NCBI GenBank assembly: GCA_947589185.1
Contig: CANQCK010000010.1
Coordinates: 1-54,117 of the forward strand
Origin: an uncultured Clostridia bacterium
GTDB taxonomy: Bacteria; Bacillota; Clostridia; Oscillospirales; Ruminococcaceae
Length of the DNA stretch: 54,117 nt
Reading direction: 5' to 3'
Every line of letters starts with the position of its first letter. Positions within the stretch are counted from its first letter, which is position 1. Positions 39,336-51,629 of this stretch are shown here, piece after piece. Made by a program: the position numbers and the translations under genes. The notes beneath the pieces are model-generated. The model did no database searches. It had not been told where the DNA came from and saw nothing but the letters and a program-made list of their open reading frames with translations.

Positions 39336-39370
39336 TCGGCGAGCCAGCAGGGGGTGACCCCTGCACTCAG

Positions 39371-39590
39371 TGCTGCCTTTGGCAAATTTGCAAAATGTAT
39401 TTACTTTGTTAAACGGCAGGCTAGTACTTTGGTTATAAAATCACGAACCGCAATGATAAACCCTGCTTGCGGTGCTGCCTTTGAAAAGTTTGCAAAATGT
39501 GTTCACTTTGTTAAACGGCAAACTAGTACTTTGGTTATAAAAAATCACGAACCGCAATGGTACACCCCTGCATACCGTGCTGCCTTTGGG
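39371..39590 (+). repeat. Two and a half copies of a 102-105-base repeat
   Basis: TGCTGCC begins at 39371, 39473 and 39578. The first two copies continue with TTTGCAAAATGT, ACTTTGTTAAACGGCA and AGTACTTTGGTTATAAAA, then AATCACGAACCGCAATG. A 112-codon open frame runs through it, but its sequence just repeats with the DNA and has no good start signal, so I treat it as repeat. It is the plus-strand relative of the repeats at 10060 and 31801-32050. Confidence 0.8.
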
Positions 39591-39594
39591 CGGC

Positions 39595-39803
39595 TAGAAG
39601 CAAGAAATTTAGAAACAAGAAACAAGATATTATTATCAGAACTTTTGTGGAAAATTAGATCTTGCATCTTGTCTCTGGTCTCTTGCCTCTAATAGGTCCA
39701 TCTAGAAGCAAGAAATTTAGAAACAAGAAACAAGATATTATTATCAGAATTTTTGTGGAAAATTAGGGCTTGTATCTTGTCTCTGGTCACTTGCCTCTAA
39801 TAG
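39595..39803. repeat. Two tandem copies of a 101-base imperfect palindrome
   Basis: TAGAAGCAAGAAATTTAG begins at 39595 and 39703 (108-base spacing) and each copy ends CCTCTAATAG. The left arm (TAGAAGCAAG...CAAGAT) is an imperfect inverted copy of the right arm (ATCTTG...CTTGCCTCTA), so each unit could fold on itself like a MITE. No transposase is present. 39804-39899 holds nothing else I can identify. Confidence 0.75.
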
Positions 39804-39899
39804 GGCTGGCTTTATTAAGAGCAATAAAATTTAGATTATGAGTGATGAGAGCAACCTCCCAAACATTTTACTTTGCCCCCATCCCACTTATAAATTATT

Positions 39900-39954: not shown

Positions 39955-40420
39955 CATGGGTCTACCCTGCTATAAATACCTAGCAAAAAAGATGTAACTA
40001 ATAACGCGAGCATAAATATTAAATCCTTCATTTTATTCAGTAAGGCAACTGTGCCACCGCATACAGTACCTATAACAATAGCACTTTCTCTATTAATATC
40101 AATTTACATTATTGGATTATTGTCGCAATAACAATACAGATTCTTAACATCATTTTTTAACACTTGGAGGTCATCCGCATTAATAAACCTACCAATATTA
40201 GCATCATAATATCTCGATTGCAGATAATATAAATTTGTATCACTATCGTAATAATATCCTCTATACCTCAAAGGATTTGTATAAGCTATACTGTTTGTAT
40301 CATATGTAATCGTGCAGTTTCCCTATGAGTCATATTCATACTCTGCCATTAAATTACCGTTCACATCAAGTATTGCTATTATATCTCCCTGTAGGTTGGT
40401 GATAAAATACTATTTATTGT
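39955..40420 (-). pseudogene. Decayed RHS core end with a third C-terminal tip
   Basis: Read on the minus strand, this encodes the RHS core end: LQGDIIAILDVNGNLMAEYEYDS, then a stop (TAG where the intact copies have the Trp codon TGG), then GNCTITYDTN, NPLRYRGYYYDSD and RYYDANIGRFINAD. A second in-frame stop follows NNPIM. Beyond it the frame encodes a hydrophobic tip with GTVCGGTVALLNK and LIFMLALLVTSFLLGIY, unlike the tips of the two other copies. The 5' side ends abruptly beside the stop codon of the leucine-rich-repeat gene. This is a relic of a third toxin cassette. Confidence 0.85.
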
Positions 40421-40435
40421 AGTATTAAAAATGTT

Positions 40436-41857
40436 TTAATCAATTTCTTTAAAATCAATATCGAATATTTCTGCATATTTTTCTGCAAAAGAATTTTTTT
40501 TACCAACAATTTTAAGGTTTTCACTATTATCGAATGCTTGAGGGTGAATATACTTTACAGAGTCGGGAATTGTTATTTCCAAACCGTCAATATCGCTGAA
40601 TGCATACCTTTCTATTCTTTCTACAAAGTTTGGTATTTTGCACTCTTTCATCTCATAACATTCAGCAAATGTTCCCTCTTCTATTGTTTTAATTTTCTTA
40701 GGTATGTTGATTTTTTTTAGATTGGAACTTATAAAAGCATACTTTTCTATTTTTTCCAAACTATCAGGCAATATTAAATTACTGATAGTTGAAAAGTTAA
40801 AAGCATTTTCTCCTATTGTCTTTATGTTATCTTCTAAAACTAATTCTTGAACATTGCCTTTACTGTATCTTACAAGCTTTGTTTTATCTTTGTTATATAA
40901 AATTGTTCCATTATCAATAACAAAAATATCATTTCCGTCTTCAATATTATATATTGAAACATTAGTCAAATCAATATCGGGTGAAATATACTCGAGGCTC
41001 TTCGGTAATGTTAAAACTGAAAGATAAGGCACATTTTCGTCATCTTCGTCATAATCGTAAAAATCACAAAGCAAATGAGTTATTCCATCTGGGATTTTAT
41101 ATTGCTGTCCCACATTTTCTGTTTCTTTTATCAAAAATTTTCCGTTTATTATAACCTCACCTTTTTGTTTTCTATACCATTTTGTTTCAGATACAGAATC
41201 AGCCTCCATATGTTTTAAAGAATTTGGGAAACTAATATTTGTAAGTTTCTTGCATCCTAAAAAAGCATTATGTTCTAATGTTTCTACACTTTCTGGAATA
41301 ACTACCTTTTTTAGATTTTCAGCATTAGAGAAAGCATTTTCTGCAATTGTTTTTACTCCGTTTGGAATTATATAATCTTCAATTGTCCTTGATGAGTCAT
41401 AACTTATTAAAATTTTTCCATCACTTGAAAACACTGCATTGTCTGTTACCTTAAAATCAGGATTGTTTTTCAGCAGATTATATCGGCTTACTTCTTTCGA
41501 TGCCAAATTACTTTGACCTACAATTTTAATAGTATTAGGAACATTTTTTATATGTATTTCATTTTGACCAGTAAATACATCATCACCGATTTCCTCTAAA
41601 CATTCTGGGAGCTTTAATTTCTCAATTGAATACACATCATTAAAAGCAGCGTCTTCAATTCTTATTACTTTTTTTCCATTATATTCATCAGGTATATCAA
41701 TACTTTCAATATATTTTTCATCTGAAATATATCTATAAAGCTCAACTCCGTTTTTATAATCGACGTAAACAAATGGCGATATGTTTTTATTATTTGTACA
41801 GTTTGATAGTACACATACACTAACGATTGTTGAAACTATTAAAAAAATTTTTTTCAT
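40436..41857 (-). CDS. BspA-type leucine-rich-repeat lipoprotein, candidate immunity partner of the orphan RHS tip
   Basis: The N-terminus is a lipoprotein signal peptide with lipobox LSNC at about residues 17-20. The remainder of the 473 residues is a series of LRR_5 (BspA/TpLRR) repeats with the pattern IxxxAFxxxxxLxxVxIPxSVxxIxxxAF, interrupted by a non-repeat stretch at about 225-325. Such proteins are surface binding proteins. It starts only 11 bases after the orphan RHS stop codon, the place where RHS immunity genes normally lie, so it may neutralise that tip at the cell surface. That role is inferred from position only. Confidence 0.8.
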   Translation of the reverse strand: MKKIFLIVSTIVSVCVLSNCTNNKNISPFVYVDYKNGVELYRYISDEKYIESIDIPDEYNGKKVIRIEDAAFNDVYSIEKLKLPECLEEIGDDVFTGQNEIHIKNVPNTIKIVGQSNLASKEVSRYNLLKNNPDFKVTDNAVFSSDGKILISYDSSRTIEDYIIPNGVKTIAENAFSNAENLKKVVIPESVETLEHNAFLGCKKLTNISFPNSLKHMEADSVSETKWYRKQKGEVIINGKFLIKETENVGQQYKIPDGITHLLCDFYDYDEDDENVPYLSVLTLPKSLEYISPDIDLTNVSIYNIEDGNDIFVIDNGTILYNKDKTKLVRYSKGNVQELVLEDNIKTIGENAFNFSTISNLILPDSLEKIEKYAFISSNLKKINIPKKIKTIEEGTFAECYEMKECKIPNFVERIERYAFSDIDGLEITIPDSVKYIHPQAFDNSENLKIVGKKNSFAEKYAEIFDIDFKEID

Positions 41858-41867
41858 CTCTTACTCC

Positions 41868-43667
41868 TTAATATGGGTATGCCCATTTATTATAACTATA
41901 TTTCAATACCTTCTTACCGAAAAATATATATTTCTTCCCCCAATAACAGTCATAAATATGAGCAGAATTAGGTATATATATATTCTTTGTATTTCTGATT
42001 TTTTTATTCTTAGAGTTATCATATTTTCTCATCATATCTATAATATAGTTTGCTTCACGAGGCATAGTCGCCAAATTTATGATTTTTGCAATTTTACTTA
42101 ATGCACTAGCTAATTTAGAAACAGAAGGTTCTGCATCCCATACTGGATCACCCAGTTCAAGTTCAAGTTGATTAAAAAACTTATTTACGGATTGCAATTT
42201 TCCATATTTATCCTTTATATACTTATACCATTGTTTTCTTGTTTTTTTAATTACATAATATTCTGTTTTATAGAAATGAGTTTTTTTAGTTGAGGTAAAC
42301 GTATAAATAGTTGAATTACCACTTTTTCTTGAACCAGAAAAATAATTTAAAGTAGCATACCGTTTTTTATTCAATCCACTATTCTTTATGGACCAAGTAA
42401 TAATATCTAAATCTTTTGCTGTAGGTGCTGCCATTATCTTTTGAGAGCCGGTTCCATAAGGATCATTATACATTATATAATTATTTGAAGTATATGAAAA
42501 CAAATTTTCATCATCATGCTGAACCATCTCAACCTCATCACTATTAATAAACCTACCGATATTACTGTCATAGTAACGGCTCTGCAGATAATACAACCCT
42601 GTATCACTATCGTAATAATAGCCTCTATACCTCAAAGGATTTGTATTAGCTATATTATCTAAATTTTGTAGTATAGTGCAGTTTCCCCATGAGTCATATT
42701 CATACTCTGCCATTAAATTACCGTTCACATCAAGTATTGCTATTATATCTCCCTGTAGGTTGGTGATATAGTAATAATGGTTATTATTGTAATCAAAGCC
42801 TATCGGATTGCCGTCTTTATCATAGTAAAAATACAGTGTGTTTCCATGCCATGTCTGTCCTGTCAGCTTATCTCCGTTCCAATAATAATTAAATTGTATT
42901 CCACTTATGACTTTTCGTGTTCTTAGTCCGTCTACATTGTATGCGTAGCTTATATTTGCGTTTCCATTCTTTACTGACTTCAGCCGTCTTCCCATTGTCC
43001 AGCTGAACTTCATTCCGTTGTAGTAGGTCAACGGGTTGCCTATTTCATCATATGTGATTTTATTGCCGTTATATGCAGTCAATAAATCTTTCCAGTCGGA
43101 ATTCCCATACGTATAAGTATTTGTTTGTGTAAGCTTGCCGTTTACATACTTCTTTAACTCGGTTATATTTCCGCCCTTATCATATGTATATTTTCTGTTT
43201 AATCTGCCTATCTCATTGGTTTCACTTATTAACTGCCCTGCTTCATCATATCCATACTTTATACCGTCTATTTCTGATATGTTTCCGCTTGCGTCATATC
43301 CGTATTTTATTGTTCTGTTATATCCGCCTGTATATGTTATTTGTGAAACCCTTTCAGAGGTTTTTCCGCTTCCGCTTGATTCATAGCTGTATTCTTTATT
43401 ATATATATCATAATCAGAAGTTTTGTTGTTTCTGATAACTCTTTCACTTGCTGTTCTGCCGAATTTATCTGTGTTTTTAAAGAAAGTTGAGTAATAGTTA
43501 TTTACTAAATATCTCGTCTTAGTTGTATAATCATCATCTGTTATTGTTTCCGTTGTCCTTGTCTTGTTGTCTATTGTCTCTACTTTCTCATTCTCTGTTT
43601 CGTAGTATTTATGATATATTCCATCACCTGTTTCTTCTATTATATCCTGACCGTCAGAGTTTGTCAA
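41868..43667 (-). pseudogene. Orphan RHS core with an alternative C-terminal tip
   Basis: The frame encodes about 400 residues of RHS/YD-repeat core nearly identical to the end of the full-length gene, from NSDGQDIIEETGDG to the GRFINSDE motif. A distinct tip of about 195 residues follows (from GTGSQKIMAAP to the final WAYPY), which I do not recognise. There is no signal peptide, no credible start (only TTG, with an in-frame stop three codons before) and no promoter, and a strong hairpin lies just upstream. It is therefore a silent or displaced cassette of the Rhs-orphan type rather than a normal gene; recombination through the core would place its tip on the full-length protein. Confidence 0.85.
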
Positions 43668-43671
43668 ATTT
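42545..43671 (-). repeat. RHS core direct repeat, copy 2
   Basis: About 1.13 kb that matches 45290-46424 with only scattered differences, in the same orientation. The match stops sharply near 43671 (after TTTGTCAAAT) and fades at the GRFIN motif, where tips diverge. The spacing between copies is about 2.75 kb. Confidence 0.9.
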
Positions 43672-43699
43672 GCTCATTTTTCAACTTTCTCTTCAAAAG

Positions 43700-43740
43700 A
43701 AAACAGGCACATAGATTTTTACTTCTATGTGCCTGTTTTT
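43700..43740. terminator. Strong hairpin between the Fn3 gene and the orphan RHS
   Basis: AAAACAGGCACATAGA and TCTATGTGCCTGTTTT form a 16-base-pair stem. T-runs on both sides allow termination either way, ending the full-length RHS-Fn3 transcript before the orphan. The inner CACATAG/CTATGTG part recurs at 50214-50234. Confidence 0.85.
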
Positions 43741-43783
43741 AAAACTATTAGTATTGTATACACTTGAATAAAATTCACTTAAA

Positions 43784-44566
43784 TTAGTCAAGAACTAAAT
43801 AAACTGTAATATAATCATTTTTATCTTTATACTTTGATACCATAATTTCTCTCGATACAGTCTTTATTGAGACATATTCTGTTATTTTTTTTGAACAAAA
43901 AAGATGATAGTACTCTTTTAGCTGAGATTTTTTTAAATCCCACCAATCACAATCATAATTATATTGTGTTTCAGCCCCCATATAAGAATTAGGCTTTTTT
44001 ATAAACTTATGTTCTTTAATAATTTTTCTAAGTTCTTTTTTCTTTATTTTTATCTTAGCTTTAATATCATAAGTAACTGCATTATCATATTCTTCATATA
44101 CCCACTCATTACGAGTATATTTTATAAATTTAACATCTTCTGAGAAATTTATACCTGTCAATTCTTTTACTTGTTTTCTTCTTACCTTATCTATTTCATT
44201 AACCTTAGTTATCATAGATTTAGCCTTACTCCAATTTCCATAAATCTTTTTACCTTTTATCTTTTTATAAGCTCTTACTTTTACATAATATTTTTTTCCT
44301 TGTCTTAATCCAGAGATTGTTTTTTTTATTTTTTTTGCAATATATGTCTTGGTTTTAGAAAAATTTTTATTTGTTGAAAGACTAATCTCATAACCAGAAC
44401 ATTTTTTTGATTTTTTTATTTTAACGGTCAACTTTCCAGGTTTAGTTGAATGAATTTTGGTTATCTCGGATTTATCATTTATGCTTACTGAAGATACATA
44501 AAGAGAACTTGTCATAGTTATTATTGTTACAATAACAGTACACAATGAAATTAATTTTTTCTTCAT
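43784..44566 (-). CDS. Secreted Fn3-domain protein, candidate immunity partner of the full-length RHS toxin
   Basis: The 260-residue protein has a signal peptide (about residues 1-27), a lysine-rich fibronectin type III domain (about 40-120, ending YYVKVRAYKKIKGKKIYGNWSKA) and a C-terminal domain of about 135 residues that I do not recognise, with acidic and aromatic stretches (EWVYEEYDNAVTYD, YDCDWWDLKKSQ). It begins 17 bases after the RHS stop codon and is followed by a terminator, so it is translationally and transcriptionally coupled to the toxin. The position is that of an immunity gene; the signal peptide says it acts outside the membrane. Confidence 0.8.
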   Translation of the reverse strand: MKKKLISLCTVIVTIITMTSSLYVSSVSINDKSEITKIHSTKPGKLTVKIKKSKKCSGYEISLSTNKNFSKTKTYIAKKIKKTISGLRQGKKYYVKVRAYKKIKGKKIYGNWSKAKSMITKVNEIDKVRRKQVKELTGINFSEDVKFIKYTRNEWVYEEYDNAVTYDIKAKIKIKKKELRKIIKEHKFIKKPNSYMGAETQYNYDCDWWDLKKSQLKEYYHLFCSKKITEYVSIKTVSREIMVSKYKDKNDYITVYLVLD

Positions 44567-44582
44567 ATTAAAACCTCTTTAC

Positions 44583-47500
44583 TTAAAACTTAACTAGTCC
44601 ACAACTTTTTAAATAATTTAATATTGAAGGCATAGTAATTGTATATAAATTGGTAGAATACCATGTAGTAGTTACATATTTCTTTCCATAAACGCTTCTA
44701 TACAAAACCCAACCCCAATTATTACTCCTTTTATTATTTGCAATTTTTAAAAATGTTTTATCATTCCTAGATTCAAAATAAGGTTCACGTACAATTTTAG
44801 AATTATAAGGATATGTCGACTCCGAATAAATAGTACCATCACTAGCAACAACTGTACCTGTAATACTTAATGAAAAATTATATGCAACATTATTCCATAT
44901 ATAATTATAGTGACCTGCATTACAACCTAATATAATTAAAGCCTTACATTTTAGTATACATAATTTATTAAATATCTTATTCCTTGTTAAATCATCAAAA
45001 ATTTGTTTTTGATCAGCGTGAGCATTCAAAACAATTACATCCGCAGATTTTATTGCATTCCATTTTTTAATAAATTTCTTTGCAGAATTTAACTTATATA
45101 AGTTACTTGATAGATTATTTTTAAAGTATCTCTTTAAACTATCCCTAATATATTTTGATTCGTTATAAAATTGAGCATTTGAAAATATATAAGCTCTATA
45201 ATATCCATTTGAATCAACATACATTATTGGATTGCAAGCACAGTAACTAAATAGATTTAACGCATTTTTTGATATCATATCAGCAGAATCCGCATTAATA
45301 AACCTACCGATATTAGCATCATAATATCTTGACTGCAGATAATATAAATTTGTATCACTATCGTAATAATAGCCTCTATACCTCAAAGGATTTATATCTG
45401 CTATATCATTTGTATCAAATGGGATTGTGCAGTTTCCCCATGAGTCATATTCATACTCTGCTACTAAATTACCGTTCACATCAAGTATTGCTATTATATC
45501 TCCCTGTAGGTTGGTTATATAGTAATAATGGTTATTATTGTAATCAAAGCCTATCGGATTACCGTCTTTATCATAATAGAAATACAGTGTATTTCCCTGC
45601 CATGTCTGTCCTGTCAGCTTATCTCCGTTCCAATAGTAATTAAATTGTATTCCGCTTATGACTTTTCGTGTTCGCAGTCCCTCTGCATTGTATGCGTAGC
45701 TTATATTTGCGTTTCCGTTCTTTACTGACTTCAGCCGTCTGCCCATTGTCCAGCTGAACTTCATTCCGTTATAGTAGGTCAATGGGTTGCCTATTTCATC
45801 ATATGTGATTTTATTGCCGTTATATGCAGTCAATAAATCCTTCCAGTCGGAATTCCCGTATGTATAAGTATTTGTTTGTGTAAGCTTGCCGTTTACATAC
45901 TTCTTTAACTCGGTTATATTTCCGCCTTTGTCATATGTATATTTTCTGTTTAATCTGCCTATCTCATTGGTTTCACTTATTAACTGCCCTGCTTCATCAT
46001 ATCCATACTTTATACCGTCTATTTCTGATATGTTTCCGCTTGCGTCATATCCGTATTTTATTGTTCTGTTATATCCGCCTGTATATGTTATTTGTGAAAC
46101 CCTTTCAGAGGTTTTTCCGCTTCCGCTTGATTCATAGCTGTATTCTTTATTATATATATCATAATCAGAAGTTTTGTTGTTTCTGATAACTCTTTCACTT
46201 GCTGTTCTGCCGAATTTATCTGTGTTTTTAAAGAAAGTTGAGTAATAGTTATTTACTAAATATCTCGTCTTAGTTGTATAATCATCATCTGTTATTGTTT
46301 CCGTTGTCCTTGTCTTGTTGTCTATTGTCTCTACTTTCTCATTCTCTGTTTCGTAGTATTTATGATATATTCCATCACCTGTTTCTTCTATTATATCCTG
46401 ACCGTCAGAGTTTGTCAAATAATTTATAACCCTACCTGTAGTATTATCATCAACAGAGGTCAGCACGCCGTCCTCGTCATAATTATAACCATAAAGTATT
46501 TTGCCGTCCTGACTGACTGCTGAACTGTTTCCATCATCGTTATACTCATAATCTATTGTCTGACCGTTACCGTAGCTGGCAGATGTTAAAACTCCTTCGC
46601 TGTCATAACCATAATTTATCAGGTTATTGCTATCTGATATAATTGATTCAAGCAAACCGAACTCAGTATAACCAAAGTAGTAATTAAATCCGTTATGGGT
46701 AATTCTGCTTAATCTGTCACCGCTGTCATAATCATACGAATTTGTAATAGATGTTCCATTACTCAAGCCTGAAACATTCTGCGATGCGCTAGTTATATTT
46801 CCCATTAAATCATAGCTGTAATTAGTAGGATTATTATTAACATTTACAGTATAAAGATTTCCGGTATTCTCGTTATAGTTATATGATGTCTTAACACCTG
46901 AAGAATCGGTTGAAGATTTGAGATAATTTCCGCTAGAAGAATACTCATTGCTGTCTGACATAGTAACGCCATCAACTACAGTAGCATTTGACAGATTATT
47001 GCCGTACTTATCTTCAACAGTAATAGTATTAATACCATCATTTTCGTCAACTGTAGTGGTACTTCCGTCAGAATCAGTAGAGGTTGTGGGTTCAGGGATT
47101 TCCTCGTCAGTATTTGTATCATTATCTGATCCTGAATCTACATTCTCATCGACTGCATTTTCGGCTTTGTAAACAACAACACCATCAAAGTAAGCACAAT
47201 TAATCTGATTTGAATAATTTATAGTAACAAAGAAATGAGTATAATCTCCGTCAGCCTCGACATTTTTCATTACATACTGCCAATTAGTGCAATATGGATT
47301 AAAGTTAATAATATGCGAACCTACAGAATTTGTTGCATTATAGAATGAAACTGTAATATTAATCGGATACTGAGGTGAAGCATTTGCATTTACCCAACCC
47401 CCTATATCGTAAGTATCGCCTTTTGTTCCTGATACATCTATTTCCTGAAAAACAATCGCATCTGGATTCCCTTTTAATTCTATAGAACCGCCGTTTCCTG

Positions 47501-50087
47501 GATGACCATAACTGCTCCATAGATGATTTGCTCCATTAACTTGAGTCCAGCCAGACAAATTATTTTCAAATTCTCCGTTTTTAATTAAATTAGTTTCACT
47601 TTTCTTATGTTCAAAAGTATTTACAAGACTGTTTACACCGTGAGTTCCAGAACCTTTTGCATACTCATTAGCGGTGACTTGACCCTGTGAATTATATGTT
47701 GATATTAAATCTCCTTCATTGCTGAATACCAAAGTTTCAGTGTCACCAGTATTATTATTTTTATACTTTGTTTGATAAGGAGAATACGTTACACTTATAT
47801 CTGTGCCCTTTGTTCCGTTACTTCCGTATTCTTTAATAGAGCTTATTCTTCTTTGTTTGCTTAAATCATAACCGGTATAAGAAAAGTTTACACGATAGCC
47901 GTCAGTATTAGTAACAGAAACCAAATTACCTGTATTCCAGCTATAGCTTACAGATTTACCGTCAGGATATGTTACCTTTTTGAGGTTTGAGCCGCTATAC
48001 TCATATGAAACCTTTCTTAAAACTGAAGATGACTTTCCATAGTATGAAATATCCGTCAGCTTTCCGTTTGTATAGTTGAAATCATATTTTCTCCCTGAAC
48101 CATCTATTATATAGTCTATTTCAAAAATATTAGTATAGTCTCCCGTGTATACAACTGTAATTTCTGGTCTTGCAGTTCCCTGCGTACCTACTATTTTTGA
48201 AAGTCTTCCGTACTGATCAAAATAATGTTCATCTCCATTTGGATCGGTAACAATTATATTATTATATCCTGATGTAGTATTATCCTTATATTTGAAGCTA
48301 TACCCTCTTTCACTTCGGTCTATATACTCTCCGGTTTCATCATCATAGTCAAAGTATATGACACTTCCATCTCCACAATAATATTCATAAAACTCATTTC
48401 GACCCATATCACTTCTAAAACTTATTAACTGAGAATAATTTGTTTTAAATCCAAATCCGAATTCTGTACTGTTAAAATAGTTTAAATTATATATCATAGA
48501 GATATTTACAGGCATAACATTACCATCGAAGCCTATATCTTCTCTTGTCAATACAACATTTCCGGTGAAATCGTTTATTGTTACTGTTCCTGCTCTGCCA
48601 ATATCGATAGTTCTGCTATTTTCAAGCTGCATTGCTGATATTGTCTTATACTCTATTGACAAATACGGTTTATCAGCAGCATTTGCAGTTTCTGATGAAT
48701 AAAATATTGACTCACTATTTTGAGCATATGGTGATGAGAGCTGAATTCCGTAATTCTTTCCTCCGCAGTACCAATCATTTACAGCGTTTGTTATATCCCA
48801 ATTCACTCTTGCGTTTTTGATTGCAGGTATATAACATACATCAAGTATTGTACTGCTCACTGATGGAAGATTAGATTTAATGTTGCTTGCCTCCCAGTCA
48901 GAAGTTATTTTATACGCATTAATCTTGTTACTTACATTTGTAGCTGTCTTTAAGTTAAGTTTGGCATTTGAAATTGTCCACAATTTATCCATTACAGGCA
49001 AGCCCTTAAAATTTATATACGCATCCATTATGCAATCTCTGTTAGATAGAGCACCTACATATAGGGTAGTAAATGTATCATAATTATATGGTGCAGCACT
49101 AAATACTGATGTGTCGACTATTTTATCAGCATATAGTGCTGAAGTTATTGTTGGATCAATAGTAACAGGATATGTTCTGTTTTCATCTGACAACCATTTA
49201 TAGTTCGGAGTATATGTCAAAATATACCCTGAACCATCTTTCTTTAGATTTGTTTTTATATTATCTGAAAATTCAAAACCCTCATCATACATATACGGTG
49301 CCGGAATAGTAAATACTTCTTTTTTGTCTTCATTCAGCAATTTAATTGAATTATCTTTATTCTGTTTTGCCGTCAATCCGTCAGCGTTAATTCTAAATGA
49401 ATATTTTTGCTTCTTATCGGGTATTTTTGAAAGAACAATATTCTCTTTCAACTTACTTCCGCTGAATATATATTCTATATTTGTATCATCATCTTGACTA
49501 TATTCTACCTTCCCGTCAAGCACTGAATCTGATACATAATCCTCCAAATCATATTTTTTAAGATCCGTGACCTTATCACTTTTTATATTTTTCTTATCAT
49601 TTATCTTTTTTGATGCAGAAGACTTTATATCAATCGGAGTTATTGATACCTTATATCCATCTGCTTCAACTTCTATATTACTTTGCTCGTCTATGTTCTT
49701 TGGCAATGATACTTTCATATCCGAGCCTGTTTCATTGCTTTCATATGCTTCAGTTTTTTCATTATATGAAAGACGGTTATCGTATTCCTGCCAAACTTCC
49801 TTATTCTCATCATAAAAGTGGACTGGTTCCTCTAATACAACTGCCACACGGCTTCCGTCTGATTTTTCATAGGTTTTGCTGTTTTCTGTTCTCAGTTCCT
49901 CAACTTCACCTGTAATATATACAGACCCATCAGAAGTTGTCTGCTCATCATTCTGTAAAGAAGAGCCTGCCTGTTCTGAAACAGGACTTCCATTAAAAAC
50001 CTCGGCGAACACTTTTGGTGCTGTACCTGTTGCAATCATAGAAATTACTATCAGCATACTTATGATTCTTGATTTTAAGTTTTTCAT
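44583..50087 (-). CDS. Secreted WapA/RHS-family YD-repeat polymorphic toxin
   Basis: The 1834-residue protein has a signal peptide (about 1-28), an N-terminal region with a DNRLRE-like beta domain (about 300-490), the RHS encapsulating region beginning near ITINDFTGNVVLTRED, a carbohydrate-binding-like insert (about 830-990, GEFENNLSGWTQVNG), an acidic Thr-rich linker, and about 20 YD repeats. The RHS core ends NPLRYRGYYYDSD and GRFINADS. The variable tip (about residues 1631-1834) contains ADVIVLNAHAD and KALIILGCNAGHY, a His/Cys pair after hydrophobic strands that recalls clan CD cysteine peptidases; this is a weak inference. The start has AGGAGG and a good promoter. Gene order toxin-partner-orphan tips is typical of RHS arrays. 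Confidence 0.92.
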   Translation of the reverse strand: MKNLKSRIISMLIVISMIATGTAPKVFAEVFNGSPVSEQAGSSLQNDEQTTSDGSVYITGEVEELRTENSKTYEKSDGSRVAVVLEEPVHFYDENKEVWQEYDNRLSYNEKTEAYESNETGSDMKVSLPKNIDEQSNIEVEADGYKVSITPIDIKSSASKKINDKKNIKSDKVTDLKKYDLEDYVSDSVLDGKVEYSQDDDTNIEYIFSGSKLKENIVLSKIPDKKQKYSFRINADGLTAKQNKDNSIKLLNEDKKEVFTIPAPYMYDEGFEFSDNIKTNLKKDGSGYILTYTPNYKWLSDENRTYPVTIDPTITSALYADKIVDTSVFSAAPYNYDTFTTLYVGALSNRDCIMDAYINFKGLPVMDKLWTISNAKLNLKTATNVSNKINAYKITSDWEASNIKSNLPSVSSTILDVCYIPAIKNARVNWDITNAVNDWYCGGKNYGIQLSSPYAQNSESIFYSSETANAADKPYLSIEYKTISAMQLENSRTIDIGRAGTVTINDFTGNVVLTREDIGFDGNVMPVNISMIYNLNYFNSTEFGFGFKTNYSQLISFRSDMGRNEFYEYYCGDGSVIYFDYDDETGEYIDRSERGYSFKYKDNTTSGYNNIIVTDPNGDEHYFDQYGRLSKIVGTQGTARPEITVVYTGDYTNIFEIDYIIDGSGRKYDFNYTNGKLTDISYYGKSSSVLRKVSYEYSGSNLKKVTYPDGKSVSYSWNTGNLVSVTNTDGYRVNFSYTGYDLSKQRRISSIKEYGSNGTKGTDISVTYSPYQTKYKNNNTGDTETLVFSNEGDLISTYNSQGQVTANEYAKGSGTHGVNSLVNTFEHKKSETNLIKNGEFENNLSGWTQVNGANHLWSSYGHPGNGGSIELKGNPDAIVFQEIDVSGTKGDTYDIGGWVNANASPQYPINITVSFYNATNSVGSHIINFNPYCTNWQYVMKNVEADGDYTHFFVTINYSNQINCAYFDGVVVYKAENAVDENVDSGSDNDTNTDEEIPEPTTSTDSDGSTTTVDENDGINTITVEDKYGNNLSNATVVDGVTMSDSNEYSSSGNYLKSSTDSSGVKTSYNYNENTGNLYTVNVNNNPTNYSYDLMGNITSASQNVSGLSNGTSITNSYDYDSGDRLSRITHNGFNYYFGYTEFGLLESIISDSNNLINYGYDSEGVLTSASYGNGQTIDYEYNDDGNSSAVSQDGKILYGYNYDEDGVLTSVDDNTTGRVINYLTNSDGQDIIEETGDGIYHKYYETENEKVETIDNKTRTTETITDDDYTTKTRYLVNNYYSTFFKNTDKFGRTASERVIRNNKTSDYDIYNKEYSYESSGSGKTSERVSQITYTGGYNRTIKYGYDASGNISEIDGIKYGYDEAGQLISETNEIGRLNRKYTYDKGGNITELKKYVNGKLTQTNTYTYGNSDWKDLLTAYNGNKITYDEIGNPLTYYNGMKFSWTMGRRLKSVKNGNANISYAYNAEGLRTRKVISGIQFNYYWNGDKLTGQTWQGNTLYFYYDKDGNPIGFDYNNNHYYYITNLQGDIIAILDVNGNLVAEYEYDSWGNCTIPFDTNDIADINPLRYRGYYYDSDTNLYYLQSRYYDANIGRFINADSADMISKNALNLFSYCACNPIMYVDSNGYYRAYIFSNAQFYNESKYIRDSLKRYFKNNLSSNLYKLNSAKKFIKKWNAIKSADVIVLNAHADQKQIFDDLTRNKIFNKLCILKCKALIILGCNAGHYNYIWNNVAYNFSLSITGTVVASDGTIYSESTYPYNSKIVREPYFESRNDKTFLKIANNKRSNNWGWVLYRSVYGKKYVTTTWYSTNLYTITMPSILNYLKSCGLVKF
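45290..46424 (-). repeat. RHS core direct repeat, copy 1 (inside the full-length toxin gene)
   Basis: Partner of 42545-43671. The encoded stretch from TNSDGQDIIEE to YDSWGNCTI differs at only a handful of residues (for example NAEG/NVDG, TWQG/TWHG, NLVAEY/NLMAEY). Such identity implies recent duplication or gene conversion. Confidence 0.9.
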
Positions 50088-50148: not shown

Positions 50149-50177
50149 ATTGTATCATTACATCTAAATGTTGTCAA
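50149..50177 (-). promoter_or_regulatory. Promoter of the RHS toxin gene
   Basis: TTGACA (complement of 50172-50177), 17 bases and TACAAT (complement of 50149-50154), about 60 bases before the start codon. Confidence 0.75.
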
Positions 50178-50213
50178 ATATTTATTTTTTACCAATTAAT
50201 TTAAAATAAAAAA

Positions 50214-50234
50214 CACATAGATTTTTTCTATGTG
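50214..50234. repeat. CACATAG hairpin upstream of the RHS toxin
   Basis: CACATAG and CTATGTG pair around a T-rich loop and are followed by CC and a T-run. The sequence repeats the core of the hairpin at 43700-43740. Confidence 0.5.
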
Positions 50235-50263
50235 CCAAATTTTTTAATATTTTAAGCAAATCA

Positions 50264-50386
50264 AAACCACCACTAAAGTGGTGGTTTGCATAGCCCCTAG
50301 AAGGAGCAAATACAGGCTCAACCCCTAAAAGGGGTTATTGAATGTTTGACTTAGCATTACTATCTCGGGTAGCCGCTAATGCGGCT
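50264..50386. repeat. Cluster of three perfect hairpins, resembling an IS200/IS605-type end
   Basis: Stem 1 is AAACCACCAC/GTGGTGGTTT with loop TAAA (50264-50287). Stem 2 is AACCCC/GGGGTT with loop TAAAA (50320-50336). Stem 3 is AGCCGC/GCGGCT with loop TAAT (50371-50386). Such GC-rich stems with TAA-type loops in AT-rich DNA are typical of subterminal hairpins of IS200/IS605 elements and their small palindromic derivatives. No tnpA or tnpB is present. Stem 3 could also serve as the end of the flavodoxin transcript. Confidence 0.55.
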
Positions 50387-50389
50387 GTC

Positions 50390-51049
50390 TTACAAATCAA
50401 GACCTTCTACCCAGTTCTTAACATCGTCTTCTGATGCTCCCGACTGGAATCTTTCGCCCTCCTGCCAGTTACCTGTTCCAGCTTCCTTTGCTAAAAGCTC
50501 TCCGCTTTCACCAATTCCGGAACTGGACGAAGTACAAAACGGTATCACAGTTTTTCCGGTAAAATCGTTTGCAGTAATAAATCCATTTACCGGCCATGCG
50601 GCGATTCCCCACCAAATAGGATAGCCTATAAACACAGTTTTGTAGTCTTCCCAATTCTCAACAGCAGTTGAAGTAAGCTCTACATTCCTCAAATCGGTGT
50701 TGTCATGCTCACGTGACACACGACTTTTCTCATTAGTCCAATCCAGATCATCATCGCTATATGGTTCTTTAGGTATCAATTCAAATGTATCAGCGTTAGC
50801 TGCGTCAGCGATATAACCTGCAACAGACTTGGTATTTCCCGTTGCTGAAAAATAAACTACTAAGGCTTTACTGCCTGCCGTTTCTGAATTTTCAGCGGCT
50901 GCTTCATTGGTTTTATTTTCTGTTTGTGATTCTTTACTTGTACTTGTTTCAGATGAATTATCTGACGAACTATCATTAGTATTCTGACTGCACGCAGTAA
51001 AAGAAACTGCTATAAGCAAACTTGTAAATAATGCAATTACTTTTTTCAT
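50390..51049 (-). CDS. Flavodoxin-domain lipoprotein
   Basis: A lipoprotein signal peptide with cysteine in FTACSQN (about residue 20) leads to a Ser/Glu/Asn-rich linker and a flavodoxin_4-type domain of about 155 residues. The FMN phosphate loop reads YFSATGNTKSVAGYI, with GYPIWWGIAAWPV and CTSSSSGIGES as later FMN contacts. It is thus an extracytoplasmic, membrane-tethered flavoprotein. I chose the ATG preceded by AGGTG; an in-frame GTG 13 codons earlier lies inside the ECF gene. The gene abuts the ECF gene and ends the four-gene cassette. Confidence 0.88.
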   Translation of the reverse strand: MKKVIALFTSLLIAVSFTACSQNTNDSSSDNSSETSTSKESQTENKTNEAAAENSETAGSKALVVYFSATGNTKSVAGYIADAANADTFELIPKEPYSDDDLDWTNEKSRVSREHDNTDLRNVELTSTAVENWEDYKTVFIGYPIWWGIAAWPVNGFITANDFTGKTVIPFCTSSSSGIGESGELLAKEAGTGNWQEGERFQSGASEDDVKNWVEGLDL

Positions 51050-51050
51050 A

Positions 51051-51629
51051 TTAATCACCTGTATTTTTATTTTTAATATTTTCCACACGGTAAATTATTA
51101 ACGGCAAAAGTGACCATTGGAGTACCAGACCAAAAATACCTGCACTAATACTATTCCAAATAGCTTCTACCTTTATACTGTCATTACCAAAAGCATAAAC
51201 TGCTATCAAAATAGCTGCCACACGTATCACACGACCTGCAACCTGTACAGCTAAAACCTTTCCTATTGTTGGTATCTTTACATTGCGGAGCAATCCTGCT
51301 GAAAGACCGTACACACATAGTTCAATCATCATAAACGGCAGCATAACAGCTCCTGGCATACCAGAAAGTGCAAAGCTCATAAGAGGTCCGAGCAGTCCTG
51401 AAATTGCTCCGGCATATGGACCTGCCAGAAGACCGACTAAAACAATCGGAAGATGCATTGGCAAGAATGTCTCGCCAAGAGCCGTTCCAAGCCCAGAAAC
51501 TGCACCAAGCAAGTGAAACAACTGCGGAACAGCAACCGCTCCAGCGATAGCTAAAATAGTTGCTATTGTCTGTACTTTAACCGACATACGGGGTTTTTCT
51601 ATTGTTCTGATAATTGTTGTATTAGACAT
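51051..51629 (-). CDS. ECF-type transporter S component
   Basis: The 192-residue membrane protein has about six membrane segments and a layout typical of ECF substrate-binding (S) proteins: ALGETFLPMHLPIVLVGLLAGPYAGAISGLLGPLMSFAL near residues 50-90. The family is often annotated as uptake protein for a vitamin or metal-related compound; the substrate is not deducible. No A/A'/T (EcfA, EcfT) genes are in the window, so it may use a shared module. It lies between the permease gene and the flavodoxin gene. Confidence 0.75.
   Translation of the reverse strand: MSNTTIIRTIEKPRMSVKVQTIATILAIAGAVAVPQLFHLLGAVSGLGTALGETFLPMHLPIVLVGLLAGPYAGAISGLLGPLMSFALSGMPGAVMLPFMMIELCVYGLSAGLLRNVKIPTIGKVLAVQVAGRVIRVAAILIAVYAFGNDSIKVEAIWNSISAGIFGLVLQWSLLPLIIYRVENIKNKNTGD

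Follow-up and report, generated by a model that had tools for sequence, protein, structure and literature searches.

All but a few of the immunity proteins known in 2012 for polymorphic toxins were described as cytoplasmic and were inferred to act inside the cell (PMC3482391). There are also precedents for immunity that stands outside the cytoplasm. In the TelC/TipC system of Streptococcus intermedius, an LXG toxin of the type VII secretion system is met by an outward-facing, membrane-anchored immunity protein, which is reported to have a transmembrane segment at its N-terminus and, facing outward, a domain that inhibits TelC, a lipid II phosphatase (PMC6193138). Immunity genes of the TipC type are also described in strings of paralogues (PMC9484751). 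EsxX, with ExiCD directed against its extracellular form, provides another precedent for exported immunity (PMC12744356), and the 2012 survey by Zhang et al. lists the lipoprotein Imm65 with Tox-JAB-1 as well as secreted or transmembrane partners for a subset of L,D-peptidase tips (PMC3482391). On the strength of these cases, exported immunity (TipC, ExiCD, Imm65) is a known kind. Here we describe an array of RHS toxin genes on contig CANQCK010000010.1 of an uncultured Clostridia bacterium; the window, meaning the whole stretch of DNA that was analysed, is one entire contig (C10; 54,117 nt) of a 1.9-Mb draft genome. We consider it probable that the full-length RHS protein of this array (RHS1) belongs to a family of envelope-acting toxins with surface-anchored immunity, in which the C-terminal tip (tip 1) is a peptidase and the adjoining gene, for an Fn3 protein, encodes its cognate immunity. 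For tip 1 the case for exported immunity is well supported; for tip 2, the tip of a second RHS core in the same array, it is unproven.

The array runs along the minus strand in the order RHS1, Fn3 protein gene, orphan RHS core, gene for a leucine-rich-repeat (LRR) lipoprotein, and decayed RHS copy (Table 1). The initial annotation had recognized one full-length RHS gene, one orphan core with a different tip and one decayed tip, and the open reading frames (ORFs) bear this out; the gaps between tip and partner gene, given there as 17 and 11 bases, are 16 and 10 nt by ORF coordinates. RHS1 (1834 aa) starts with a hydrophobic segment that is signal-peptide-like by sequence, and, as in other RHS/WapA toxins, its RHS repeats and Rhs-associated core are followed by a variable C-terminal tip. 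Also characteristic of RHS/WapA loci are downstream orphan cassettes with a common core, and the orphan protein (599 aa) has the same core as RHS1, with no N-terminal hydrophobic segment. A third characteristic, a linked gene that recurs with homologous tips, is found for tip 1; for tip 2 we see adjacency. Tip 1 and tip 2 show no sequence relationship (the best blastp alignment covers 23 residues, E 0.24). Pfam yields nothing for either tip at E<=5, and NCBIfam gives no match outside the core and repeats in either RHS protein and none for the Fn3 protein. Both partners had been annotated as exported. By a crude hydrophobicity rule the Fn3 protein does carry an N-terminal export segment, and its Fn3 match stays under the Pfam cut-off (18.7 vs 25 bits). 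The LRR assignment is strong (LRR_5, 167 bits), and by the same rule this protein has an export segment with a lipobox-like cysteine.

Relatives of tip 1 were sought in three overlapping samples: 247 genomes of the same taxonomic family (searched with the tip alone), 325 of the order (two-row profile) and 291 of the class (five-row profile). Counting the window, the tip 1 family comprises 12 tips in ten genomes. The other 11 are L009 in genome G208, two tips in series (L017/L036) in G425, L018 and L019 in G247, and L030-L035 in six genomes. Nine of the 12 are complete and attached to an RHS core. Of the other three, L018 is truncated, L032 has decayed, and L019 is a fragment, weakly matched (E 0.002), with no core attached. 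Candidates L010 and L011, from the search of 247 genomes with tip 1, proved to lie in unrelated genes, as did the weak matches L020, L021, L022, L071, L072, L080 and L081. Viral contigs yielded no kin of tip 1, tip 2 or the partner domain described below, plasmids held nothing matching the L031 tip, and a further scan of genome contigs with profile A4 returned one locus, L036, on the contig already known as L023.

Downstream of every one of the 12 family tips is a gene encoding a protein with a single hydrophobic export segment at its N-terminus. For comparison we took RHS tips from the same class: 58 RHS core places gave 30 loci, or 29 with the window's own left out, and of these 24 had a downstream ORF under our rule, four did not, and one had no core under the pattern. 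The products in nine of the 24 controls were N-exported (three with a second segment), four were polytopic, and 11 were neither. The difference between 12/12 and 9/24 corresponds to a Fisher p of 2.6e-4 (3.0e-5 if single-segment proteins alone are counted, 6/24 controls; 7e-4 after dropping the two G247 members), values that are read with the export calls made by a crude hydropathy rule and the related tips not independent of one another. Two of the nine control export calls (L044, L055) look doubtful. The 29 control loci contained no tip 1 family member and no copy of the partner domain. By these counts, non-cytoplasmic partners are not rare in clostridial RHS arrays; the tip 1 family has them in every case seen. 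In the window's own genome, all five RHS-linked partner genes that were examined have an export segment.

Some of these partners are also related to each other. Those in genomes G702, G657, G572 and G775 have a common domain of ~122 residues with a WWDL motif, and profiles of this domain built from four and five rows with the window left out score the Fn3 protein at 16.2 and 16.0 bits. Shuffled sequences score lower (best 12.0 of 3,200 and best 11.3 of 3,600, respectively). When the five-row profile without the window is run against the whole window genome, the single match at E<=10 falls on the Fn3 protein C-terminus (20.7 bits, E 5.6e-4). The WWDL domain is seen after homologous tips in five genomes, and sequence comparison shows these five partners to be homologous. 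A sixth copy, in G626, stands without a tip behind S-layer (SLH) domains. The pairing of tip 1 with the Fn3 gene had been proposed from position and coupling, and it is strengthened by recurrence of the Fn3 C-terminal domain beside homologous tips in four other genomes, by the profile that picks the Fn3 protein alone from its genome, and by the export segments of all 12 partners. Wide occurrence of partner genes without RHS tips had been named as a point that would count against it. In 138 class genomes, a profile including the window found four real carriers, three of which (window, G572, G657) adjoin tips; the fourth (G626) lies in a mostly exported run with a short RHS remnant. Another point so named was tips found with different partners: the WWDL domain is kept in five of the 12 pairs, and the other seven tips have other exported partners, which argues against one-to-one pairing.

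The modules that precede the WWDL domain differ from genome to genome. They comprise an export segment with SLH domains (72.9 bits) in G626, an export segment with a copper-amine-oxidase N domain in G775, a single membrane helix in G702, G657 and G572, and an export segment with the Fn3-like part in the window. The anchors thus appear to change, while the WWDL domain and its predicted outside location stay. Its position behind an export segment and SLH or copper-amine-oxidase N modules argues that the domain lies outside the cell. The WWDL domain has no Pfam-A match over the cut-off. A single-sequence search with the Fn3 C-terminus in the 247 family genomes found, besides itself, a chance match in a release-factor-like gene (L015), and a single-sequence model of the partner domain (predicted local distance difference test, pLDDT, 52) was too poor for a fold search. 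Among the remaining partners, that of L033 is an RCC1-like beta-propeller, and the start of the L034 partner resembles a copper-amine-oxidase N domain by eye, with no Pfam match. In the 2012 survey by Zhang et al., no beta-propellers were found among immunity proteins (PMC3482391). RCC1-like beta-propellers with an export segment were also noted directly behind an RHS tip or an apparent tip remnant at L077 6333-7340 and L073 14671-15789.

Exported partner genes are also found without a toxin. On contig C6 of the window genome (L087 3261-3943), a cassette keeps the upstream hairpin, a perfect promoter match and a core stub; the toxin part is gone, and the intact lipoprotein gene that follows is probably an orphan exported immunity gene. 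On contig C1 of the same genome (L028 8024-9656), two small exported genes are interleaved with RHS core remnants. The copy in G626 belongs to a run of 13 plus-strand ORFs (L073 8799-18152), ten with an N-terminal hydrophobic segment, that includes SLH, copper-amine-oxidase N and RCC1-like proteins. A short ORF in this run was read by eye as an RHS-core remnant and is followed by an RCC1-like lipoprotein, and no tip 1 family member is present in the 19 kb. The run looks like an island of exported immunity genes.

Retention of partner genes where the toxin has been lost is as expected of immunity genes and speaks against a display helper. The suggestion of the initial annotation that the partners help to display the tips is accordingly disfavoured by what is seen on C6 and in G626. 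More generally, the exported partner could be an accessory that folds, anchors or displays the RHS protein, with immunity encoded elsewhere, and surface anchors such as the SLH, copper-amine-oxidase N and Fn3-like modules would suit such a display role. We regard an accessory function as improbable, since in the window each tip has a different partner while both share the core, and the same partner domain accompanies both an RHS protein with an export segment (window) and one with a WXG100-like start (L075).

Clan CD peptidases have a His/Cys dyad at the ends of neighbouring core strands. In an alignment of 11 tip 1 family rows (fragment L019 left out), C93 is present in 11/11 rows and H61 in 10/10 rows that reach the position, and W47, H97, A106, D121 and G163 are near-invariant. 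The conserved His and Cys expected of clan CD and Tox-Caspase domains are thus present. An AlphaFold2 model of tip 1 from three rows (pLDDT 64.5; predicted template modelling score 0.70) shows alternating strands and helices, with H61 directly after strand 53-60 and C93 directly after strand 85-92, where the adjoining residues have pLDDT <50. Tip 1 is basic (isoelectric point, pI, 9.7). A search of the tip profile against solved structures gave one weak DUF4347 chain (E 0.73) that is collinear at both the H61 and the C93 sites. The conserved residues and their place in the model suggest that tip 1 is most likely a caspase-like cysteine peptidase. Because the fold and family matches are weak, this activity is one that we infer.

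A number of observations weigh against our proposal as a whole. Confidence in the tip 1 model is middling, with residues 62-64 and 95-98 beside the dyad below 50 pLDDT, and L034 has N in place of H97. Fold searches bring up generic Rossmann folds of the flavodoxin and receiver kinds, with a caspase-6 chain no higher than Foldseek rank 17 (E 0.077), and clan CD chains are not prominent in the VIA-align fold list, an absence that proves nothing. DUF4347 (PF14252) is below its cut-off, with a best member of 16.2 vs 24.6 bits (E 0.009, one member). On the side of the partners, export was called by a hydropathy rule and not by SignalP, and the start codon of the L035 partner was set by eye, whereas controls took the first start. 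The WWDL match in the window is modest (16.0 and 20.7 bits), and with a related profile two chance matches reach 18.8 and 18.9. Seven of the 12 partners have no detectable kinship to the WWDL domain: for those of L036, L024, L025 and L026 none was detected by HMMER or hhalign, and for those of L033 and L034 none by HMMER. The tree of tips is weakly supported and does not unite the WWDL partners in one clade; they need two changes on it, and 18/500 shuffles are as low.

Two alternatives accept an exported pair and assign tip 1 another role. In the first, tip 1 would be some other alpha/beta enzyme with a target in the envelope, such as a lipid, a glycan or teichoic acid. The ranking of Rossmann folds above any peptidase and the lack of any peptidase family at the cut-off for tip 1 would fit such an enzyme; the conserved His and Cys after two predicted strands and the DUF4347 chain that aligns weakly at both sites are harder to reconcile with it, and we think it unlikely, though to be kept in mind. 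In the second, tip 1 would be a releasing or autoprocessing peptidase that the partner silences during export. Most caspase-like domains of polymorphic toxins are thought to be peptidases of that sort, and Zhang et al. nevertheless read some C-terminal versions as toxins (PMC3482391). Tip 1 is the C-terminal-most part of RHS1, and the orphan has tip 2 in its place, and nothing lies behind it to be released. There is little to recommend this second alternative.

We therefore return to the proposal that tip 1 is an envelope-acting peptidase met by surface-anchored immunity. RHS1 would be a polymorphic toxin of the WapA/RHS kind exported by what is presumably the Sec route. Tip 1 would harm other cells from outside the cytoplasmic membrane, by cutting a surface or envelope protein. 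The gene at 43784-44566 would be the cognate immunity gene, and its product would be exported so that the WWDL domain stands on the outer cell face, where it could bind and block tips arriving from sister cells or leaked from the cell's own secretion. The N-terminal part (Fn3-like here; a membrane helix, copper-amine-oxidase N or SLH in relatives) would merely place the WWDL domain at the surface. The export route of the toxin need not be the same throughout the family. RHS1 has a Sec-type start in the window; the RHS protein of G657 begins with a WXG100-like domain (E 2.4e-4, below the cut-off), and that of G702 is encoded ~2 kb from a YukD gene and a gene for an FtsK/SpoIIIE protein that contains an FHA domain. 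Tip 1 family members thus seem to ride on the Sec route and probably also on the type VII route, with a partner predicted to be exported in each case.

Judged by analogy, TelC/TipC is the nearest mechanistic precedent for this arrangement. TelC is a Gram-positive polymorphic toxin that acts outside the cytoplasm, and the immunity protein encoded next to it has an N-terminal anchor and an outward inhibitory domain; RHS1 is predicted to act there too, and its partner is predicted to have an anchor and an outward domain of this sort. Unlike TelC, a lipid II phosphatase on an LXG protein, the window has a peptidase-like tip on an RHS protein with a Sec-like route, and unlike TipC the WWDL immunity domain has several alternative anchors. 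No TipC chain was among the two matches at E<=10 when the WWDL profile was compared with solved structures. The toxin domain itself may be compared with Tox-Caspase, which is described as a caspase-like domain with H and C, C-terminal in some versions, with RHS repeats and Firmicutes listed (PMC3482391). Tip 1 is similar in its conserved H and C and its C-terminal position on an RHS toxin. The immunities listed for Tox-Caspase are Imm36 and Imm57 (PMC3482391), and immunities in that survey are mostly cytoplasmic, in contrast to the tip 1 family, where 12/12 partners have an export segment. Imm65 and the partners of L,D-peptidase tips, which are predicted to act at the cell surface, resemble our partners in placing immunity outside the cytoplasm. 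They differ in going with other toxins, and their kinship to the WWDL domain was compared via Pfam-A alone, with no match over the cut-off.

For the orphan cassette, the closest described arrangement is the rhs locus of Salmonella, where a full-length rhs gene is followed by an orphan core-tip-immunity cassette with a recombination segment of 522 bp at 95% identity, and where recombination of the orphan tip into the main rhs gene has been proposed with evidence (PMC3967940). Internal promoters are reported in Salmonella rhs frames (PMC7043789). The window likewise has a main gene and an orphan cassette, a segment of high identity, and a candidate promoter inside the rhs frame. Salmonella differs in being Gram-negative, and the portions of its rhs accounts cited here mention neither exported partners nor an anchored immunity domain. 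The orphan core and RHS1 are 95.6% identical over 1127 bp; the first 486 bp (162 codons) are identical, and differences then rise toward the tip, a pattern as after recent exchange or duplication. Homology between the two begins, within 3 bases, at the TTGACA of a perfect promoter match, TTGACA-17-TATAAT, which also occurs in RHS1 (46418-46390) and in the C6 remnant, where the same upstream flank is present. In all, six perfect promoter matches were seen, against 0.06 expected under a first-order model of the window. A strong hairpin terminator separates the tip 1 pair from the orphan; this call depends on its fold z-score (-6.9), as the consensus terminator scan did not list the hairpin at 43700-43739. 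Neither this terminator nor the promoter match had been noticed in the initial annotation. A junction promoter does not hold as a general rule: 12 other arrays in 11 genomes had none that was strong at the junction (best 9 of 12, G657), so the feature is seen in this genome alone, at the window orphan, RHS1 and the C6 remnant.

These features suggest that the orphan core, tip 2 and LRR lipoprotein gene form a reserve cassette. Homologous recombination through a crossover within the identical 486 bp could bring it into RHS1, where the full-length export part would then be followed by tip 2 and the LRR gene. The cassette's own promoter, if active, may keep its immunity gene expressed in the meantime, provided that the LRR protein is protective. 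For tip 2, searches of three partly overlapping sets of 247, 325 and 97 genomes brought up one relative. This relative, L013 in G161, is the tip of a full-length RHS protein; the gene that overlaps it encodes a multi-pass membrane protein rather than one with LRRs. The relative has a mildly hydrophobic stretch, and we would guess that tip 2 is a membrane-acting toxin. In the same genome (L027 5723-7645), two similar small membrane protein genes lie on the strand opposite to the RHS gene with the tip 2 relative, with an ORF between them; they are possible immunity paralogues.

The second proposed pair, tip 2 and the LRR lipoprotein, fared less well than that of tip 1. The sole relative of tip 2 has a polytopic membrane partner and LRR_5 matches occur at 69 places in the window genome, so that the spacing is what points to a pair. 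Both observations would suit an ordinary BspA-type surface protein that is there by chance or has replaced an earlier immunity gene. Such an origin is a serious contender, which we rate at somewhat below even chances, given that the LRR gene follows tip 2 by 10 nt on the same strand, that its product has lipoprotein-like export as do other RHS-linked partners examined in this genome, and that an Imm-LRR class has been described (PMC3482391).

Table 1. Coordinates of the features of the RHS array in the window.
Feature	Position	Strand	Basis or remark
RHS1, full-length RHS toxin: N-terminal export segment, DUF6531, RHS repeats, Rhs_assc_core to residue 1628	44583..50087	-	ORF, domain matches
Tip 1, toxin domain, 205 residues; conserved W47, H61, C93, H97; putative caspase-like cysteine peptidase	44586..45200	-	
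Exported tip 1 partner (Fn3 protein): export segment, weak Fn3-like domain, C-terminal WWDL domain (predicted immunity)	43784..44566	-	
WWDL domain (predicted immunity) within the Fn3 protein	43787..44188	-	Also present in partners of homologous tips from four other genomes, and in an SLH protein of a fifth
Terminator hairpin at the end of operon 1; stem of 16 pairs, loop of 8 nt, T-rich tail	43700..43739	-	Fold z-score -6.9
Perfect TTGACA-17-TATAAT promoter match, first bases of orphan cassette core	43639..43667	-	Consensus scan
Identical promoter match inside the RHS1 reading frame	46390..46418	-	Consensus scan
Main RHS1 promoter candidate, TTGACA-17-TACAAT with TG	50149..50177	-	Terminator-like hairpins upstream at 50212-50287
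Orphan RHS core and tip 2, without export segment; first 162 codons as in RHS1	41868..43667	-	
Tip 2, basic domain, 194 residues, pI 9.9	41871..42452	-	One relative found (L013)
BspA-type LRR lipoprotein after tip 2; candidate immunity role	40436..41857	-	
Third RHS core, decayed, with tip remnant	about 39955..40430	-	2 TAG and 2 TAA in 40098-40430

Beyond the array itself, two separate places in the genome (window 50390-51088 and L087 188-3001) have flavodoxin genes immediately upstream of RHS material. The flavodoxins of the two sites are 38.9% identical over window residues 14-232, and on contig C6 the copies are two long ORFs in tandem, with an end that by eye resembles an aldo-keto reductase. 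Two direct-repeat families of 103 and 82 nt (window 39359-39804) are found downstream of the decayed RHS gene; a similar repeat piece on contig C1 (L028 11249-11306) makes this possibly a short dispersed repeat.

Searches of the open-access literature did not find the tip 1 toxin family, the WWDL domain or the exchange of anchors around it. A broader picture, which we offer tentatively and would not yet bet on, is of a contest fought wholly outside Gram-positive cells. RHS-borne cysteine peptidase toxins that never enter their target would be met by inhibitors on the membrane, the wall or the S-layer. Evolution would keep the inhibitor domain and swap its anchor (transmembrane helix, Fn3-like part, copper-amine-oxidase N, SLH), and would also recruit other exported scaffolds such as the beta-propeller and perhaps the LRR protein, and cells without the toxin would retain islands of genes for exported immunity proteins. 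A tip family with exported immunity tells where the fight takes place without knowledge of the target, and this offers a search rule by which an exported partner would point to an envelope-acting tip. The swapping of anchors around one inhibitor domain may likewise be regarded as a natural experiment that probes where in the Gram-positive envelope immunity has to be placed.

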